The notes under the pieces are model-generated. The model was not told where the DNA came from. It was given only the letters and a program-made list of their open reading frames with translations, and searched no databases. Positions 34,289 to 40,512 of a stretch of DNA of 49,564 nucleotides are shown here, in pieces. Where the stretch lies: positions 1 through 49,564 of the forward strand of contig JAHRYP010000020.1 in NCBI GenBank assembly GCA_020622105.1, read 5' to 3'. Each line of letters starts with the position of its first letter. Position 1 is the first letter of the stretch. The position numbers were made by a program, and so were the translations under genes. This DNA is from Methylotenera sp. GTDB taxonomy: Bacteria; Pseudomonadota; Gammaproteobacteria; Burkholderiales; Methylophilaceae.

Positions 34289-34486
34289 ATGTCTGAAATT
34301 GCACAAGAAGAAGTTCAATCACCATGCATAGGTGTTTGCAGTATGGATGAAGCATCAGGTTATTGTCAGGGATGCTATCGTACGATTGAAGAAATAAAAG
34401 GCTGGTGGAATATGAGTCATCCAGAGCAGACGCAGTTGGTTGCTGCGTTGGAACAGCGTCAGGCGCAAACAGTCAGTTTTGACTAG
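34289..34486 (+). CDS. DUF1289 family protein
   Basis: 65 residues of the DUF1289 family, marked by SPCIGVCSMDEASGYCQGCYRT, a four-cysteine CxxxC...CxxC array that probably binds zinc or an Fe-S cluster, followed by WWNMSHPEQ. Function unknown. It follows secA by about 50 bases and its end overlaps the convergent kinase gene by 4 bases. Confidence 0.88.
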   Translation: MSEIAQEEVQSPCIGVCSMDEASGYCQGCYRTIEEIKGWWNMSHPEQTQLVAALEQRQAQTVSFD

Positions 34487-36039
34487 CGAGTCCTGAATAA
34501 GCGGTTGCATTGCAGCAGTTTATTCAAGGCATCTTTTGCGCAGGTATCTATCAGGATGACTTTGTCCTGTTCTGTAGCGGAAAAGCCTTGCGCTGTTTTT
34601 AGCTGATGTTCCAGTACGGCCAAGGTTGCTTCAGAGGCATCGTTGCCGGACTGCTGACGTTTGCTGACCCGCTGTTTTAATTCCTGTTCTGGTGCCCAGA
34701 AATCTAATATTAAAAAATCCACCTGTTTTCCCACGGCTAATTCTGCAAACAGTTCCCGCTGTCTAGCTTGTAAAAAAGCAGCATCAATCAATACTGAAAA
34801 ACCGGAATCCAGCAGTGCTGATGCCAACTCGGCCAGCCTGCGATAAACCAGCAGTACGTTGTCCGGTGTGTAAAGCCCCTGATTCACTTCGTTGCTGGCA
34901 TTCTTCTGGAGCTGATCTTGCTCAGGTTTATATATGAGTCGCTTACGCTCAATATCTGAACGCAGGTGAATAATGCCGAGATTTTCTGCGATCTGTGCAC
35001 TGAAAGTAGATTTTCCTGAACCTGAGTAGCCATGGGTAATGAGTAATTGATTGGGCTTCGGCTGGCTGTAGTTTTCAGCTAAAGAAGCGTAACTCTCGGC
35101 TTCCTGTAAATCCTGAGGATTTTGATGTTGTTCCCAGCGTAGCAACGCTACTTTACAACGCACCAGCGCTCGGTACACCAGAAAGTAAGGCAATAAGGCC
35201 AATCCTTCGTAATCACCGCTAGCGCTTGAATAGCGATTCAGAAAACGATAGGCAAGCTGGTTAAAACCGCGTTGTTGCAAGTCCATGACCACGAAAGCGA
35301 TTTCGCTGATCACGTCTATCCAATGCAGCCCCGGATTAAACTCGATACCATCAAACGGTGTGACTTTGCCATCAATGAGTGTAATGTTGCCCAGATGCAA
35401 ATCACCATGACACTCGCGAATAAACCCCTGTTGCTTACGTAGCTGCATTAAATGCTGGTTTTTTAACAGTGCTTGCTCACCCCAGCGCTCTAATTGCAGT
35501 ATCTGCTGTATGAACTTTTCATTGTTGATTAAAGGGCGAATGTGGGCGAAGTTGCCTTGGAACCAATGGTGGGTTTCCTGCGGCGTGCCAAAATGGCTAT
35601 TTGAGGTATCGCTTGCTGCATTACAGTGAAATTCAGCCGTAAGCTCAGCTAGTTGGTCGATAATGGCAGGGCTTAGTTCGCCGCGGTCCGCGACATGGCT
35701 TAATAGCAGACTGCCATCAAATTGCTGCATTTGCACTGCATATTCGATGGCTTCACCGCTACCATTAATCTGCGGGTGTTGCGCAGTGCCGGTAATCGGG
35801 ACTACTTGCAGGTAAAGATTCGGGGCGAAGCGGCTGTTAAAACGTAATTCTTCCTGACAGTAGAAATGCCTTTTATCCAGCGTAGAGAAATCAAGAAAAT
35901 CAAATTGCACATTTTTTTTGATTTTGTAGGCGTAGTGACCTGTTAACAAAACCCATGAAATATGGGTTTCAATCAGCTCAATATGCGTTACGGGGTGTGG
36001 ATATGCGGCAGGATTTAATAAGGCTTGAATTAGATTCAC
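34483..36039 (-). CDS. APH-like phosphotransferase/P-loop kinase two-domain protein
   Basis: 518 residues. The N-terminal half (about 1-320) resembles aminoglycoside phosphotransferase-like kinases, with the catalytic-loop motif ECHGDLHLGNI (about 213-223) and the metal site TPFDGIEFNP. The C-terminal half (about 330-515) is a P-loop kinase with Walker A in GYSGSGKSTFS. This fusion (COG2187 plus COG0645) is widespread and uncharacterised. It begins 32 bases after the DUF2063 gene of the RiPP operon and is likely co-transcribed, but the family is not usually a RiPP component, so a functional link is only possible. Confidence 0.88.
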   Translation of the reverse strand: MNLIQALLNPAAYPHPVTHIELIETHISWVLLTGHYAYKIKKNVQFDFLDFSTLDKRHFYCQEELRFNSRFAPNLYLQVVPITGTAQHPQINGSGEAIEYAVQMQQFDGSLLLSHVADRGELSPAIIDQLAELTAEFHCNAASDTSNSHFGTPQETHHWFQGNFAHIRPLINNEKFIQQILQLERWGEQALLKNQHLMQLRKQQGFIRECHGDLHLGNITLIDGKVTPFDGIEFNPGLHWIDVISEIAFVVMDLQQRGFNQLAYRFLNRYSSASGDYEGLALLPYFLVYRALVRCKVALLRWEQHQNPQDLQEAESYASLAENYSQPKPNQLLITHGYSGSGKSTFSAQIAENLGIIHLRSDIERKRLIYKPEQDQLQKNASNEVNQGLYTPDNVLLVYRRLAELASALLDSGFSVLIDAAFLQARQRELFAELAVGKQVDFLILDFWAPEQELKQRVSKRQQSGNDASEATLAVLEHQLKTAQGFSATEQDKVILIDTCAKDALNKLLQCNRLFRTR

Positions 36040-36071: not shown

Positions 36072-36833
36072 TTAATGATGCGTGCCGATAATCACGCCCT
36101 GACGCTGCAGGTCTTCCAGTATGGATAGACCAAATTCAATGATACTCTCTGGCTGGGGATGCTGTAACTCTTTTGCCACTAGTGTGAGTGCCTGAGTCCC
36201 GGTAAGAGGCGCATTTTGTAGTAATGAAATTAATCTGTGTGTGACAGCATTCAGTTCTATGAATTTTACCTGGTCATCAGTGTTGAGGAATACCAGAAGC
36301 TGGGTACTTTCAGGTTGCTTAGGTTTATACCGTGGTGAAATTTTATGTACGGCATAGTCGTAATTGAGTAACTGCATGGTCGGTGCAAACGCCGGTTTGC
36401 TGTTAGCAAGATCGCATTCAGGCGCAATATCAATTGGCTTCGCAGTGTCAGCACTTGAGGCTACAAACAGCTCTATCCATTCATAATGGCATAGGCTGTT
36501 GAGATAAGGCGGCAGCATTGCCTGCAATTCTAGATCAGCATTATTGAGGAATTGTAGAAACTGCTCAGGAATTTTGCGGAACAAAGGGTTGTTTGCAGAA
36601 TATTCGCGCATAAAAGCTTGATTCAGTTTTAACCATTTGCGCTTGCCAAGGACTTTGTGTGCAACAGGGAAGCATGCAGATACTGATTCAAATAAATTGT
36701 TGAATACAATTTCTTCATATACGGCCATGCGTTCATGCGGCACACCAACTAGCGGCGGTTGCTTGTGCGGGTCGCGCAGGCGCGCGGTAAATGCCAGTTG
36801 GTAGCGCTGAAAGCCGGGTAGTTCTGCAGTCAT
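36072..36833 (-). CDS. hvfC: DUF2063 RiPP maturation partner (HvfC/BufC-like)
   Basis: 253 residues. The N-terminal domain has the DUF2063 pattern: FQRYQLAFTARLRDP, VYEEIVFNNLFESVSACFPV, then REYSANNPLFRKIPEQFLQF (about 75-95). The C-terminal half is the winged-helix-like part of the same family. Known members partner DUF692 oxidases in RiPP pathways, binding the precursor and presenting it to the enzyme. Only 4 bases separate it from the DUF692 gene, so the two are translationally coupled. Confidence 0.88.
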   Translation of the reverse strand: MTAELPGFQRYQLAFTARLRDPHKQPPLVGVPHERMAVYEEIVFNNLFESVSACFPVAHKVLGKRKWLKLNQAFMREYSANNPLFRKIPEQFLQFLNNADLELQAMLPPYLNSLCHYEWIELFVASSADTAKPIDIAPECDLANSKPAFAPTMQLLNYDYAVHKISPRYKPKQPESTQLLVFLNTDDQVKFIELNAVTHRLISLLQNAPLTGTQALTLVAKELQHPQPESIIEFGLSILEDLQRQGVIIGTHH

Positions 36834-36837
36834 GACA

Positions 36838-37731
36838 TTAGCCCGTAGCTGCTAACTGTTCAGAGGCAATAAAACGTCGCTCGATTTTGTTCTGGTAATC
36901 AGCAATTTTATTGATTTCATGCATGAGTTCCAGCAGCGGTGGTATGTTGTTATCGCGTTCCAGCAGTGTGGGAAAGCTGCCGAATAACTGGTAAGCATCC
37001 TCAAGCAGCGCCCACACCGGATCAATGACATTCTCGCCATGGGTATCAACCAGCAGGTTAGGTGTCTGCTGGTAATGGCCTGCCATATGGCTGTAAATAA
37101 TGCGTTCACCCGGAATGCCGCGCAGAAATGCATGCGGGTCAAAGCCGAAATTGACGCTGTTGACGTAAATGTTATTGATATCCAGATGCAGCAGACAGTC
37201 AGCTTCTGTGATGACGGCATTAATGAAGTCGAGCTCACTCATCTCGGAAATTGGCGCAGCAACATAAAATGAGGCATTCTCAATCCCGATGCGTTGGCCA
37301 AGAATGTCTTGTGTCTGCCGTATACGCTGTGCCACATAATGCACGGCTTCTTCGGTAAAGGGTATCGGCAGCAGGTCATACAGGTATCCTTGCTCGCCTT
37401 TGAAGCCATCGGTGCAGTAACTTAAATGCTCGGTATAAACAGGTATCTGGTATTGGTGCAGGAATGTTTTGACCTGCTGTAGAAAGTCGACATTAAGTGG
37501 ACTTAATCCGCCTAATGATAAACATAAGCCATGGCACACAACAGGATAACGCTCAACGAACCAGTCCAACTGTTTAGCAGCTTTGCTACCGGCGCTGATC
37601 CAGTTCTCTGGTGCTATTTCCACGAAATTGATATTCGCTAATTGTGCCTGTCCATACAGCGACTGAATCTGGGGTATCAGCTCACGCTTAAGCCCCAGAC
37701 CCGTGCCTTGTATCTGGCTGATGATTGCCAT
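36838..37731 (-). CDS. hvfB: DUF692 multinuclear non-heme iron oxidase (HvfB-like)
   Basis: 297 residues of the DUF692/MNIO family, TIM-barrel enzymes with two or three iron ions that oxidise cysteines of peptide substrates. MbnB is the model; TglH and BufB are relatives. The start GTGLGLKRELIP is diagnostic. Conserved putative metal ligands are visible: H67 in VCHG, E101/H102 in TEHLSY, E151 in IGIENASF, D184/N186 in LHLDINN, H215 in YSHMAGH, D229/H231 in VDTHGE, and E258 in LLERD. All appear present, so an active enzyme is expected. It follows the Cys-rich peptide gene by 31 bases, so that peptide is its likely substrate. Confidence 0.92.
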   Translation of the reverse strand: MAIISQIQGTGLGLKRELIPQIQSLYGQAQLANINFVEIAPENWISAGSKAAKQLDWFVERYPVVCHGLCLSLGGLSPLNVDFLQQVKTFLHQYQIPVYTEHLSYCTDGFKGEQGYLYDLLPIPFTEEAVHYVAQRIRQTQDILGQRIGIENASFYVAAPISEMSELDFINAVITEADCLLHLDINNIYVNSVNFGFDPHAFLRGIPGERIIYSHMAGHYQQTPNLLVDTHGENVIDPVWALLEDAYQLFGSFPTLLERDNNIPPLLELMHEINKIADYQNKIERRFIASEQLAATG

Positions 37732-37762
37732 GGGTGGTTATTGATAACAGTAAATCTATTTG

Positions 37763-38086
37763 TTATTTTTTCTCGCCGCCACATTTACCTTCGTGGGCTT
37801 TTTCTGCGCTACATTTGCCTTCAGCAGCTTTGTCGCCGCCACATTTACCTTCATGGGCTTTCTCTGCACTGCATTTGCCTTCAGCTTCTTTTTTCATGCT
37901 GGAACCACATTTACCGGTACCGCATTTACCATCTGCAGCTTTTTCGTGGTGATCTGCGACTTGATAACCGCTGGACAGTGATTTTATTGCAAATGGATTT
38001 TCTGCTGCATTGACGGTTGTTGCTGCGATAGAAAGTGCAAACGCGCTGCCGATAGCAAGAGAAATAGTTTTCTGAGTTTTGTTCAT
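37763..38086 (-). CDS. hvfA: HvfA-like RiPP precursor, Cys-rich with EGKC motifs
   Basis: 107 residues. Residues 1-28 are a Sec signal peptide (basic start, hydrophobic core, VNAA before ENPF). The stretch LSSGYQVADHHEKA follows, then six Cys at 55, 60, 72, 82, 92 and 102 in DGKCG, TGKCG, EGKCS, EGKCG, EGKCS and EGKCG. This matches the HvfA family, whose EGKCG cysteines are turned by the DUF692/DUF2063 pair into oxazolone-thioamide copper ligands. The frame is open upstream to 38143, but the ATG at 38086 with TTAAGGAAATTAAC gives the proper signal peptide. Expected role: exported metal-chelating peptide. The modification is inferred, not seen. Confidence 0.92.
   Translation of the reverse strand: MNKTQKTISLAIGSAFALSIAATTVNAAENPFAIKSLSSGYQVADHHEKAADGKCGTGKCGSSMKKEAEGKCSAEKAHEGKCGGDKAAEGKCSAEKAHEGKCGGEKK
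37766..37882 (-). repeat. Tandem 60-base repeat inside the RiPP precursor gene
   Basis: Two near-identical copies: 37823-37882 (60 bases, residues 69-88) and 37766-37822 (57 bases, residues 89-107). Each encodes EGKCS-AEKAH-EGKCG-G followed by D/E-K. The pattern indicates growth of the core region by duplication. Confidence 0.9.
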
Positions 38087-38143
38087 GTTAATTTCCTTAA
38101 ATTTAATTAAAAATAACCAGGCTTGATTTAACAGATTCAACAC

Positions 38144-38398
38144 TTATTGCTGATCAGATTCGACCCTGTGCAGAATCCTGTTTTTTACATTTAACGGTAG
38201 CTTTATAGAGCTGTCGTGTTCTGTGCTGTTTCTAATCCGCTGCAGAGCAGTGCGCAACATATAAAGTTGACGCTTGAACTGCGTGCATGGATTGCACATT
38301 AAAAGATGCAGTCTTAACATTACCTTTTCTGACCACGTCAGTGGACGGTCTAAAGATTGTGAAAGGAGTTTGCTGGCTTGTTTACAGGTAAGCATCAA
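38144..38398 (-). CDS. Small zinc-finger (zf-HC2-like) anti-sigma factor
   Basis: 84 residues. The N-terminus MLTCKQASKLLSQSLDRPLT and the HLLMCNPC segment give the C...HxxxCxxC zinc site of zf-HC2/ZAS anti-sigma factors. There is no membrane helix, so it should be a soluble cytoplasmic regulator, unlike most membrane anti-sigma factors. Two adjacent ATG codons (38398 and 38395) are possible starts. It lies 11 bases after the ECF sigma gene and 57 bases before the RiPP precursor. A metal or thiol state acting on the zinc site could release the sigma factor; this is inference from family and context. Confidence 0.82.
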   Translation of the reverse strand: MMLTCKQASKLLSQSLDRPLTWSEKVMLRLHLLMCNPCTQFKRQLYMLRTALQRIRNSTEHDSSIKLPLNVKNRILHRVESDQQ

Positions 38399-38409
38399 AA
38401 TTTACCAAT

Positions 38410-38964
38410 CTAAGACCAATTCAACTCTAGACATTTTCTTAATCCCATCCGCGCTCTATATAACATTACCCAAGCATTGGTCGCGGTAATATCCAGTTCC
38501 TTACAAATATTTTCATTTTCAAGTTCGTGTACATCGCGCAGCATGAAAATGGCTTTTAATTTCTTGGGTAATTTGCTTAGGCACTCGTCTAGGACAGCTA
38601 AAAACTGTTTCTGTTCCAGAGAGTTATCCGGCATCTCCAGCGTTTGTGGTTTATCGAGCCAGTGGCCGGATTTGTCAAAAAAGTCATCCATGCTATTTTC
38701 GCAAGCATCGAGGTCAATGACATCTGAAACAGGCTGCTCGCGCATCTGTTTGCGCTGTAAATCAATGATTTTGTGCTTCAGTATGCCCGTTAGCCAGGTT
38801 CTCGCAGATGAGTTGCCATCAAAACTATTGTTTTTAATGGCTGCCAGCATGGTCTCCTGCACAGCATCTTCTGCCTGATGCGGGTCTTTAAGTCTTGCCA
38901 GTGCAAAGCGATATAAATAATCGCCATGTTCAGTAAGCCAGTCGTTAAGATTGTTTTCTGCCAC
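38410..38964 (-). CDS. ECF-type RNA polymerase sigma factor
   Basis: 184 residues of group IV sigma-70 type. Region 2 (about 12-80) includes LYRFALARLKDPHQAEDAVQ and TWLTGILKHKIIDLQRKQ. Region 4 (about 125-182) includes LPKKLKAIFMLRDVHELENE and CKELDITATNAWVMLYRARMGL, the promoter-reading helix-turn-helix. The start is GTG at 38964, overlapping the TAG stop of the DUF1841 gene by one base, with GGAAAAG upstream. Directly before an anti-sigma gene and the hvfABC-like genes, it is the likely activator of this module. Comparable sigma control is known for copper/gold-induced DUF692 operons. Confidence 0.92.
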   Translation of the reverse strand: MAENNLNDWLTEHGDYLYRFALARLKDPHQAEDAVQETMLAAIKNNSFDGNSSARTWLTGILKHKIIDLQRKQMREQPVSDVIDLDACENSMDDFFDKSGHWLDKPQTLEMPDNSLEQKQFLAVLDECLSKLPKKLKAIFMLRDVHELENENICKELDITATNAWVMLYRARMGLRKCLELNWS

Positions 38965-39404
38965 TATGCTTTTCCAACTCTTTCATTTAGCAGTCCAAGA
39001 TAATGAGCTGAATCTAAAGGCACATTGTTGCGCTGCGAGTGCCAGATAGTTTCAGCCAGGCATTCGAGCAGATCATGCTGTGCGCTGTGTTTGTCAGCGT
39101 GTTTTTCTACTAATGTAGCATAAACTTTACTGATGCCGATAGGCTGGTTGATACTGACCTGCTCAATGACTGAGAGGTGCAGGCTGATATGCAGAAACGG
39201 ATTGGTTTCTCCCATTTCCGGAAAATACTGCTGACTCATATAGCGTTCCGGTGCGTCTAATATTGCATGATATTCCGGATGCATCTGTATGACTTCAACC
39301 GCAATCTTTTCTAAATCCGTCAGTGGGGAGTTTTGTTTGAATTTGGCCCATGCATCAAATAAAAATTGGCGTGCCTGATCTCGGCTAGGATTGTATAAGC
39401 TCAT
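38964..39404 (-). CDS. DUF1841 family protein
   Basis: 146 residues of the DUF1841 family: YNPSRDQARQFLFDAWAKF at the N-terminus, PEMGETNPFLHISLHLSVIE in the middle, and HDLLECLAETIWHSQRNNVP near the end. Helical, soluble, function unknown. It ends by a one-base overlap (TAGTG) with the sigma gene start, which implies translational coupling, and follows the FIST gene by 16 bases. Common beside nth in betaproteobacteria, so its tie to the sigma gene may be only positional. Confidence 0.87.
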   Translation of the reverse strand: MSLYNPSRDQARQFLFDAWAKFKQNSPLTDLEKIAVEVIQMHPEYHAILDAPERYMSQQYFPEMGETNPFLHISLHLSVIEQVSINQPIGISKVYATLVEKHADKHSAQHDLLECLAETIWHSQRNNVPLDSAHYLGLLNERVGKA

Positions 39405-39420
39405 ATTGAATACCGGCTAT

Positions 39421-40512
39421 CTATGTTGTCTTGGCGCTTGAAAATAAAGAAAGTACTGCAGAGTAAGGCAATAAGCGATTGTCGCCGTTAAGATAGGCAA
39501 TTTCACCATTACCATAAAAGCCTAATACTGGCATGTTTGGAAAAGTTTTGGTGATCACTTTCAAATCACGGTCTATGCCATTGTAAAAATATGGGCCTCT
39601 TCCCAGACAGGAAAACAACAATGCAAAATCTGGTGGGCAGCCAAGTTTTTCAGTCAGGTGGCTTGCCAGTATTGTAATGTCGGCTTCAGCAGCTGAGGTA
39701 GCACGTAAAGACCAGCTTAAAAATTGGCCAGCTTGTAGTGGCTGTGCCAGAGTAATGCTGCCATTATCCTCATCATAGCTGATAATCGTAGTTTGATTAA
39801 AATGGCCTTGTGTTATCGCTTCTGCACTGTCGGCATATAAGGCTACAATCAGATGTAGCGGTACAGTTTCATCACTCTTGCTGTGGGCTTTCCAAGCCTT
39901 TTGCAGCCCGTTCAGCGGAACTTGATGATTGAGTAGTTTAAGGTCAAATTGGTCTGTCAGCTGAATCTGTTGCGGTTGTGTGAGCAGTTGTACACCGTGT
40001 GAAGTCCCGGTAGCAATGTTGACGCCTGAGAAAAAGGCTTCAACATACCCTGATACCTCACCTTTGGCATTTTGCCATACTGAAAATGGGCCCTGACCAA
40101 TTGCATCCCCGGATACACCACCATAACGTCGATTGCTGTTATTAAGCCACGTGCTGTTAATGGCATTGGGCGCACTGAGTGTAAGCAAGGGCTGATTGCA
40201 GAAGTTGTTTTGTGGCAATTCGAGGCTTACACCGTCCCCGAACACCATGGCCGCCGCCGCAGGTGCATCTAGTACCCAGTCTTCTTCGGTAAAAATTCCG
40301 GTCGCAGAGCAGCCCATGACCTGCATGCAATTAGCAGCTTTGGCTGCTGCTTTAATGGCATCCTGCGGGTTACTCGCAAACTCTGATGTCAGTAACAGCA
40401 GCACGCTGCTGGCAATACTGATATCTGCCTTTTGCATGGCATTGGTCACGGCTTGTGCCGCTAAATCTGCAGAAGCTGTTTTACCTAATATGATGCTGGT
40501 TGCGACTTTCAT
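39421..40512 (-). CDS. FIST domain sensory protein
   Basis: 363 residues with FIST N and FIST C domains, a ligand-sensing module thought to bind small molecules such as amino acids. Seen: VMGCSATGIFTEEDWVLDAPAAAAMVFG in two parts of the N-domain, YGGVSGDAIGQG, and in the C-domain LLFSCLGRGPYFY followed by NMPVLGFYGNGEIA. There is no output domain, so it would act on a partner. It starts 2 bases after the nth stop, so it is co-transcribed with nth and the rsx genes. Confidence 0.9.
   Translation of the reverse strand: MKVATSIILGKTASADLAAQAVTNAMQKADISIASSVLLLLTSEFASNPQDAIKAAAKAANCMQVMGCSATGIFTEEDWVLDAPAAAAMVFGDGVSLELPQNNFCNQPLLTLSAPNAINSTWLNNSNRRYGGVSGDAIGQGPFSVWQNAKGEVSGYVEAFFSGVNIATGTSHGVQLLTQPQQIQLTDQFDLKLLNHQVPLNGLQKAWKAHSKSDETVPLHLIVALYADSAEAITQGHFNQTTIISYDEDNGSITLAQPLQAGQFLSWSLRATSAAEADITILASHLTEKLGCPPDFALLFSCLGRGPYFYNGIDRDLKVITKTFPNMPVLGFYGNGEIAYLNGDNRLLPYSAVLSLFSSAKTT

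Follow-up and report, generated by a model that had tools for sequence, protein, structure and literature searches.

A predicted HvfABC copper-peptide operon in Methylotenera under an ECF sigma factor and a zinc anti-sigma factor, with a candidate promoter inside the sigma gene

The DNA analyzed here (the window) comprises positions 1 to 49,564 of contig JAHRYP010000020.1 (assembly GCA_020622105.1), part of a 96% complete genome of Methylotenera sp. whose named close relatives are Methylotenera as well, which fits the methylotroph host named in a first-pass annotation. Between 36072 and 38964, all on the minus strand and in the order which that annotation had given, lie five genes: an extracytoplasmic function (ECF) sigma factor, a soluble zinc anti-sigma factor (ZAS), the peptide precursor hvfA, the MNIO enzyme gene hvfB and its partner hvfC. 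We consider it likely that they form an operon for a copper-binding ribosomally synthesized and post-translationally modified peptide (RiPP), run by the sigma/anti-sigma pair from a promoter within the sigma gene, with hvfX and msrPQ as further members in trans. This reading builds on gene identities, conserved gene order, a split hvfX-msrPQ locus, promoter-like sites and constraint at synonymous positions, all of which were computed here. With slightly less confidence, we also regard it as probable that the sigma factor recognizes a promoter in the very DNA that encodes its promoter-reading region 4, and that this promoter has been retained at an unchanged codon position in lineages ranging from Methylophilaceae through Nitrosomonas and Thiobacillus to, in part, Mariprofundus. 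The circuit would then have negative feedback only. Copper-peptide genes would have been inserted into it downstream of the anti-sigma gene, joining genes for methionine repair in the periplasm and, in relatives, bufferin genes.

A conserved promoter-like element inside the sigma factor gene

The ECF gene (38410..38964, minus strand) encodes Pfam domains Sigma70_r2 and r4_2 and scores 200.5 bits against TIGR02943 (cut-off 162.2). Within it, at 38477..38504 on the minus strand and covering codons 154-163, lies the predicted sigma-dependent promoter GTAAG-N16-CGACCAA, which points at the anti-sigma gene and hvfABC and is one mismatch away from the consensus found before hvfX (see below). The site was present in identical codons, as CGACCAA or CGACGAA, in all 26 ECF genes of the genus examined. 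Over the last 79 codons of these genes, the only invariant degenerate third bases are those of codons 151, 154, 155 and 161, and three of these four are exactly those third bases, three in all, at which the site agrees with the consensus.

A wider set was drawn from the best 80 of 106 relatives, and synonymous shuffling was applied to 80 ECF genes (79 named ones and that of the window, leaving out L202, whose gene is cut off). GTAAG-N16-CGACNAA occurs in 73 of these 80, whereas the mean over 300 synonymous shuffles was 7.0 and the maximum 16; for the Methylotenera-like subset the figures are 27/28 against a mean of 1.5 and a maximum of 5. Codon 161 ends in CG in 79/80 genes, yet it encodes Ala (34), Pro (21), Thr (14) or Ser (11). 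Lys155 is AAG in 77/77 genes, while the control lysines K63 and K65 use this codon in 28/79 and 26/80, and Cys154 is TGT in 77/78 versus 31/79 and 53/80 at control positions. Trp codons aside, the third bases of codons 154, 155 and 161 are the three best conserved of the gene. The counts are not independent events, as the 80 genes are kin and the shuffle control, which preserves protein and codon usage, does not preserve their kinship; the 26-gene and 80-gene sets were tallied apart, and some loci of both come from identical genomes.

Promoter sites follow gene layout. In L192 (also seen as L030), where hvfA stands apart from the anti-sigma gene, the internal site is absent and sites are found before hvfA and before the ECF gene instead. 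This is the only one of the 80 loci with a sigma-type site (up to one mismatch) within 400 nt before the ECF gene. In the approximately 57 nt directly before hvfA, only the ribosome-binding site is conserved by eye. Among the literature matches listed, the titles and abstract openings describe no ECF-internal promoter of this kind.

The same element before hvfX, msrP and bufferin-like genes

According to published accounts, a DoxX/HvfX gene is common in HvfABC-type clusters. In this genome it lies outside the studied stretch, on another contig (L053, positions 1408-1944; NF050144 123.4, cut-off 80), where msrP (465.6 bits with the full-length protein, cut-off 207) and msrQ (182.1, cut-off 130) immediately precede it. 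A second DoxX-domain match in the genome was rejected as HvfX, since only the L053 protein passes the HvfX equivalog. msrP and msrQ precede hvfX in 19 of 25 hvfX loci of the genus, and hvfX stands beside hvfABC or the ECF gene in a few relatives (L079, L080, L082, L142, L152, L177, L180, L192; genomes partly identical). Since hvfX and msrPQ lie elsewhere and the sigma gene has no sigma-type site in the 400 nt before it, the regulon appears to be split, and the description of the module as self-contained in the first-pass annotation is not supported in that form. Only one match to the PMSR (MsrA) family, a 179-aa open frame, was found in the genome. EGKCG clusters are reported to include molybdopterin-oxidoreductase and ferric-reductase genes in small numbers (PMC12452194, PMC13097082), and these may be msrPQ. 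Titles and abstract openings among the matches listed showed no work joining MsrPQ with the HvfABC family.

The gap between msrQ and hvfX carries GTAAG-N16-CGACTAA. To survey this element, 28 hvfX loci were used, 25 of them in the genus and including that of the window genome (L085 and L088, without a tblastn match, and three further HvfX matches without a locus were left out); CGACTAA, CGACCAA, TGACTAA and TGACCAA were accepted as −10 (C or T at its bases 1 and 5), with spacers of 15-17. The element was found before hvfX in 23/25 genus loci, always with a spacer of 16. Five of the 28 loci lack it: one at a contig edge (L074), one with hvfX behind hvfC (L079) and three from other families (L084, L086, L087). 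Wherever hvfX directly follows hvfC, it has no site of its own (3/3 loci). With T for A additionally permitted in the −10, the element was also detected in 13/17 relatives at a distance of 31-64 nt ahead of msrP. In the genome of the window itself, a copy that differs from CGACTAA at one base stands 63 nt ahead of the gene, so that under this rule the count becomes 14/18.

An exact search yielded 56 sites in 23 genomes of the genus versus 13 for the reversed pattern, and 5 versus 11 in 14 genomes of other families. No exact site was found in four genus genomes without ECF and HvfB (G002, G005, G006, G008; 71-86% complete). We read the neighborhoods of 28 loci at exact sites, naming genes by the look of their translations rather than by family scans (two genes were later confirmed by family). 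Of these loci, 19 precede hvfX, MsrP-like, thioredoxin-like, DUF1223-like or anti-sigma-like genes, six have the site in an fxsA-like gene and three show no evident link. L103 and L121 are on one contig with two sites and were both read at the same one. The sites in the fxsA-like gene lie on its opposite strand (L090, L106, L109, L111, L113, L115, L119), in most cases upstream of CutA-/DsbD-like genes; they may represent coding coincidence or another intragenic promoter and were left out because of the former possibility.

Six regions of relatives contain a second MNIO set. In five of them (L227-L230, L232) the element stands before a Cys-rich bufferin-like precursor gene, and in the sixth the contig start is too close to tell. 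BufA2 and BufB cut-offs were reached in L232, for which alone they were tested. In a published survey, sigma and anti-sigma genes are described in Buf1 but not Buf2 clusters; sigma control of the bufferin-like sets in these relatives would act in trans.

The genes of the predicted operon

The anti-sigma gene (38144..38395, minus strand) encodes 83 aa from ATG; the 84 aa of the first-pass annotation are obtained with the TTG start at 38398, and its call of a soluble zinc-binding anti-sigma factor is supported. The protein exceeds the cut-offs of zf-HC2 (33.4 bits, cut-off 22.2) and NCBIfam antisigmaE (72.1, cut-off 50), no long hydrophobic stretch was seen by eye, and the gene adjoins its ECF gene. 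Its motif Cys4-x25-His30-x3-Cys34-x2-Cys37 is identical in layout to the one quoted for MseR of Neisseria. The pattern Cys-x25-His-x3-Cys-x2-Cys recurs in 74/79 homologs, the other five giving an empty or one-residue translation from the estimated start. The RsrA equivalog TIGR03988 was not reached (21.5, cut-off 62.5), and a sequence search of PDB returned no convincing relative (best E 0.55). We conclude that it is likely a zinc anti-sigma factor of the RsrA/MseR/HrsE type, from which redox release of the sigma factor is predicted by analogy.

The hvfA-like precursor (37763..38086, minus strand, ATG at 38086) has 107 aa, a signal peptide recognized by eye with a cut after VNA, and six Cys, every one in GKC, just as annotated at first. 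It passes the domain model NF050137 (32.3, cut-off 19.5), and its score for the HvfA equivalog NF050188 (27) is below the cut-off of 95. In the repeat part, GKC sites are about 10 residues apart, unlike the published 17-residue repeat with two EGKCG. Six is also the commonest number of Cys among 62 homologous precursors (31/62), in which 199 of 347 Cys are in GKC and 86 in GSC. Within the precursors of L002-L031 and L130-L209, the C-terminal GKC has often drifted to GSC, GAC or GNC, and an N-terminal pair resembling DGKC(G/S)-TGKCG is mostly retained.

The enzyme HvfB (36838..37731, minus strand; MNIO, DUF692), the one MNIO match found in the genome, scores 393.7 against NCBIfam NF003818 (cut-off 360) and matches PDB 3bww with E 1e-73. 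Its DUF2063 partner HvfC (36072..36833, minus strand) scores 246 against NF050145 (cut-off 142) and matches PDB 3dee with E 1.4e-12. Thus, searches against the HvfA, HvfB, HvfC and bufferin families bear out the HvfABC-type identity at the level of the HvfB and HvfC equivalogs and the HvfA family-domain model, though not of the HvfA equivalog. The bufferin types 1 and 2 were rejected (BufB 260.9, below 310; no BufA2 and no DUF2282 match), as was methanobactin (MbnB TIGR04159 35.1, below 325). All expected metal-ligand positions had been claimed for the enzyme. For site 3, the one looked at, this agrees with what we see: N186/N187, D229 and H231 stand in motifs that by eye match site 3 of H. 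influenzae HvfB (N175, D242, H244), and they are invariant in six homologs. The copper role proposed earlier is likely by analogy with EGKCG products from the literature, in which thiooxazoles and Cu binding have been described. As part of the overall reading, and as likely as that reading is, the module would be an HvfABC copper-peptide operon (captophorin/oxazolin type) with predicted thiooxazole formation and copper binding.

The genes are separated by 11 nt (ECF-ZAS), 57 nt (ZAS-hvfA), 31 nt (hvfA-hvfB) and 4 nt (hvfB-hvfC). The arrangement is not a chance one. Among 30 HvfB loci (that of the window and 29 of relatives), ECF-ZAS-hvfA-B-C occur together in 26, including the window; of the exceptions, L018 and L021 lie at contig ends, and in L030 and L031 the locus yielded no match to ECF or ZAS. 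In the wider set, the anti-sigma gene follows the ECF gene in 79/80 loci, and hvfB lies at most 2.6 kb downstream on the same strand in 62/80, with four contigs ending too soon and 14 loci without hvfB. ECF-ZAS pairs without nearby hvfB include Nitrosomonas- and Mariprofundus-like ones (L183, L184, L187, L188, L198, L203, L206, L208, L209), and the contig of L182 is too short to tell. Several such pairs keep the ECF-internal site, which is perfect in Nitrosomonas L182 and L184.

The start codon of the ECF gene, GTG, overlaps the stop codon of a DUF1841 gene directly upstream (38964..39404, minus strand; PF08897, 192 bits), so the sigma factor is probably supplied by upstream transcription, with DUF1841 probably on the same transcript. 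The order nth-FIST-DUF1841-ECF-ZAS-hvfA-hvfB-hvfC is shared by the window and 19/20 long relative loci, L051 being without the upstream part. The FIST-domain gene (39421-40512) keeps its place between nth and DUF1841 in 19/20 as well. Downstream of hvfC, a gene on the same strand (34483-36039) encodes AAA_33 and APH-like domains and was matched in this position only in the closest relatives (L003/L032, L130).

Proposed circuit, alternatives and known systems

Promoter activity, signal, peptide modification, copper binding and feedback are predicted as follows. The sigma factor would be present at a basal level from transcription through nth-FIST-DUF1841-ECF and be held by the zinc anti-sigma factor. 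Oxidation of the anti-sigma Cys residues, or loss of zinc to a thiophilic metal, would free it, and the free sigma factor would fire the GTAAG-N16-CGAC(T/C)AA promoters inside the ECF gene, before msrPQ and before hvfX. The internal promoter would read into the anti-sigma gene and hvfABC. HvfB and HvfC would then convert Cys residues of HvfA to thiooxazoles, and the peptide, exported to the periplasm, would bind copper(I). HvfX would assist, and MsrPQ would repair oxidized methionines in the periplasm; msrPQ of E. coli is likewise tied to HOCl and copper. The induced anti-sigma factor would end the response. In this scheme the sigma factor would drive expression of the copper peptide and of the protein that inhibits it, while its own gene would stay outside its control, which would amount to negative without positive feedback.

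Several observations weigh against this reading. The window alone contains two matches with up to two mismatches where 2.39 are expected, i.e., chance level, and in the whole genome the motif falls below its reversed control (4 versus 12 matches, and 13 versus 30 in a second scan). Hence, sites are not callable by sequence alone, and the motif is convincing solely through its conservation before hvfX, not through the search of the own genome. Seven of the 80 ECF genes lack the internal site. A perfect −10, with Thr162 as ACT, is found in 5/80 genes and CGACCAA in 65/80; the latter might be a weak promoter. Four of the 17 msrP upstream regions have no site, and at least seven of the 56 exact sites in the genus lie in the fxsA-like gene, with three more lacking an evident link. 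Single genomes also break a clean rule: G015 lacks both an exact site and an HvfX match although it has ECF and HvfB; G014 carries a single site, yet no ECF match; and G009 has ECF, yet neither HvfB nor a site. Finally, meningococcal sigmaE is reported to give no response to the oxidants tried.

Control of a similar gene set by RpoE2/HrsE in Haemophilus influenzae, together with the thiooxazole and copper data for EGKCG products, leads us to interpret the module as the part of an envelope oxidative-damage regulon that binds copper. Its probable activation along with genes for the repair of oxidized proteins suggests that the copper peptide is one arm of an envelope response to oxidative and copper stress. 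The metal stress of which the first-pass annotation spoke is thus only part of the picture. The copper role agrees with it by analogy, but the Cys/His layout of MseR and the induction of the H. influenzae relative by hypochlorite and peroxide make an oxidant no less likely than a metal to be what the system senses directly. As a less probable alternative, which we still take seriously, copper itself could be the signal, with Cu(I) or a similar thiophilic metal displacing the zinc of the anti-sigma factor and oxidant repair being secondary. The element before bufferin-like precursors in five of six second-MNIO regions, with BufA2 and BufB in L232, fits this. However, the anti-sigma layout equals that of MseR and is RsrA-like, oxidation of thiols and methionine is suggested by the sites before msrP and by those that relatives carry ahead of DUF1223 and thioredoxin-like genes, and the H. 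influenzae relative is reported to be induced by HOCl and H2O2.

It is improbable, in our judgment, that the conserved bases are kept for reasons of protein, codon usage or RNA and that transcription of hvfABC depends entirely on upstream read-through. Codons 154-163 do lie within sigma region 4 (Pfam stretch 124-172), and the site, an imperfect one, does not reach significance when the window is taken by itself. Nevertheless, such an explanation is at odds with the synonymous shuffles, with the CG ending of codon 161 regardless of the amino acid encoded, with the identical element and spacer before hvfX and msrP, and with L192, where the ECF gene lacks the internal site and a site stands before hvfA. 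Similarly doubtful is a sigma factor serving mainly anti-sigma feedback and msr-type repair while hvfABC is merely carried along, neither modified nor used for copper: the hvfB-less loci, Nitrosomonas and Mariprofundus included, the sites of G043 before MsrP-like and anti-sigma-like genes (by eye) in a genome without HvfB match and the many precursor Cys of relatives that have left GKC would agree with it, but hvfB follows the ECF gene in most loci, and the same promoter stands in trans before hvfX, whose family name marks it as a dedicated partner.

The physiological role of copper-binding RiPPs is described as still open. The proposed circuit joins them to ZAS-type redox-sensing sigma circuits through a testable promoter rule. 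If it is correct, the copper peptides of these methylotrophs share one envelope-damage regulon with MsrPQ, conserved GTAAG-N16-CGAC(T/C)AA sites outline this regulon in genomes having the sigma factor, and surveys restricted to neighboring genes miss trans-controlled members such as hvfX, msrPQ and bufferins.

Among the closest known systems, sigmaE/MseR of Neisseria meningitidis (NMB2140-2145) likewise combines an ECF sigma factor with a zinc anti-sigma factor (Cys4/His30/Cys34/Cys37), a DoxX-family gene and three genes then of unknown function, and it controls msrA/msrB. The neisserial sigmaE promoter (−35 GTMAGBWTT, −10 CGTCTAAH, 12-13 nt between) resembles the Methylotenera element GTAAG-N16-CGACTAA. 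A loose scan of the window with the neisserial consensus gave 81 matches, i.e., noise; L052 was scanned with this consensus only. In contrast to Methylotenera, the six meningococcal genes form a single autoregulated operon that includes the sigma gene, with positive feedback, whereas in Methylotenera the predicted promoter begins only after the start of the sigma gene and would leave it out, hvfX is located in trans and msrPQ takes the place of msrAB. In H. influenzae, RpoE2/HrsE, an ECF sigma factor with a 67-aa ZAS anti-sigma factor, controls a doxX-COG3767-UPF0276-DUF2063 set plus msrAB, with HOCl as the stress. There, the sigma/anti-sigma genes and the four-gene operon, which includes DoxX, are at separate loci, while Methylotenera has the anti-sigma gene and hvfABC in one stretch behind the sigma gene.

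An internal promoter of matching logic is reported for SigH/RshA of Corynebacterium glutamicum, in which a SigH-dependent rshA promoter lies inside sigH and sigH-rshA is transcribed from housekeeping promoters. That lineage is distant, however, and rshA is the sole target of its internal promoter, which is not followed by genes for a copper peptide. Bufferin 1 operons also place sigma factor genes beside MNIO copper-peptide genes (PMC12452194, PMC13097082). They differ in their DUF2282 precursor and their NrsF family of anti-sigma factors. Organisms with sigma factor and NrsF in bufferin 1 operons are, for example, Caulobacter and Cupriavidus. The fontiphorin/captophorin EGKCG clusters share the MNIO enzyme, the DUF2063 partner and, at the level of the HvfA family-domain model, the type of precursor, and the available parts of their descriptions mention no zinc anti-sigma gene, intragenic promoter or MsrPQ by name. 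Both the chemistry and the link to a sigma/anti-sigma pair are of known kinds, the latter represented by sigmaE/MseR in Neisseria and RpoE2/HrsE in Haemophilus; the circuit proposed for Methylotenera is new.

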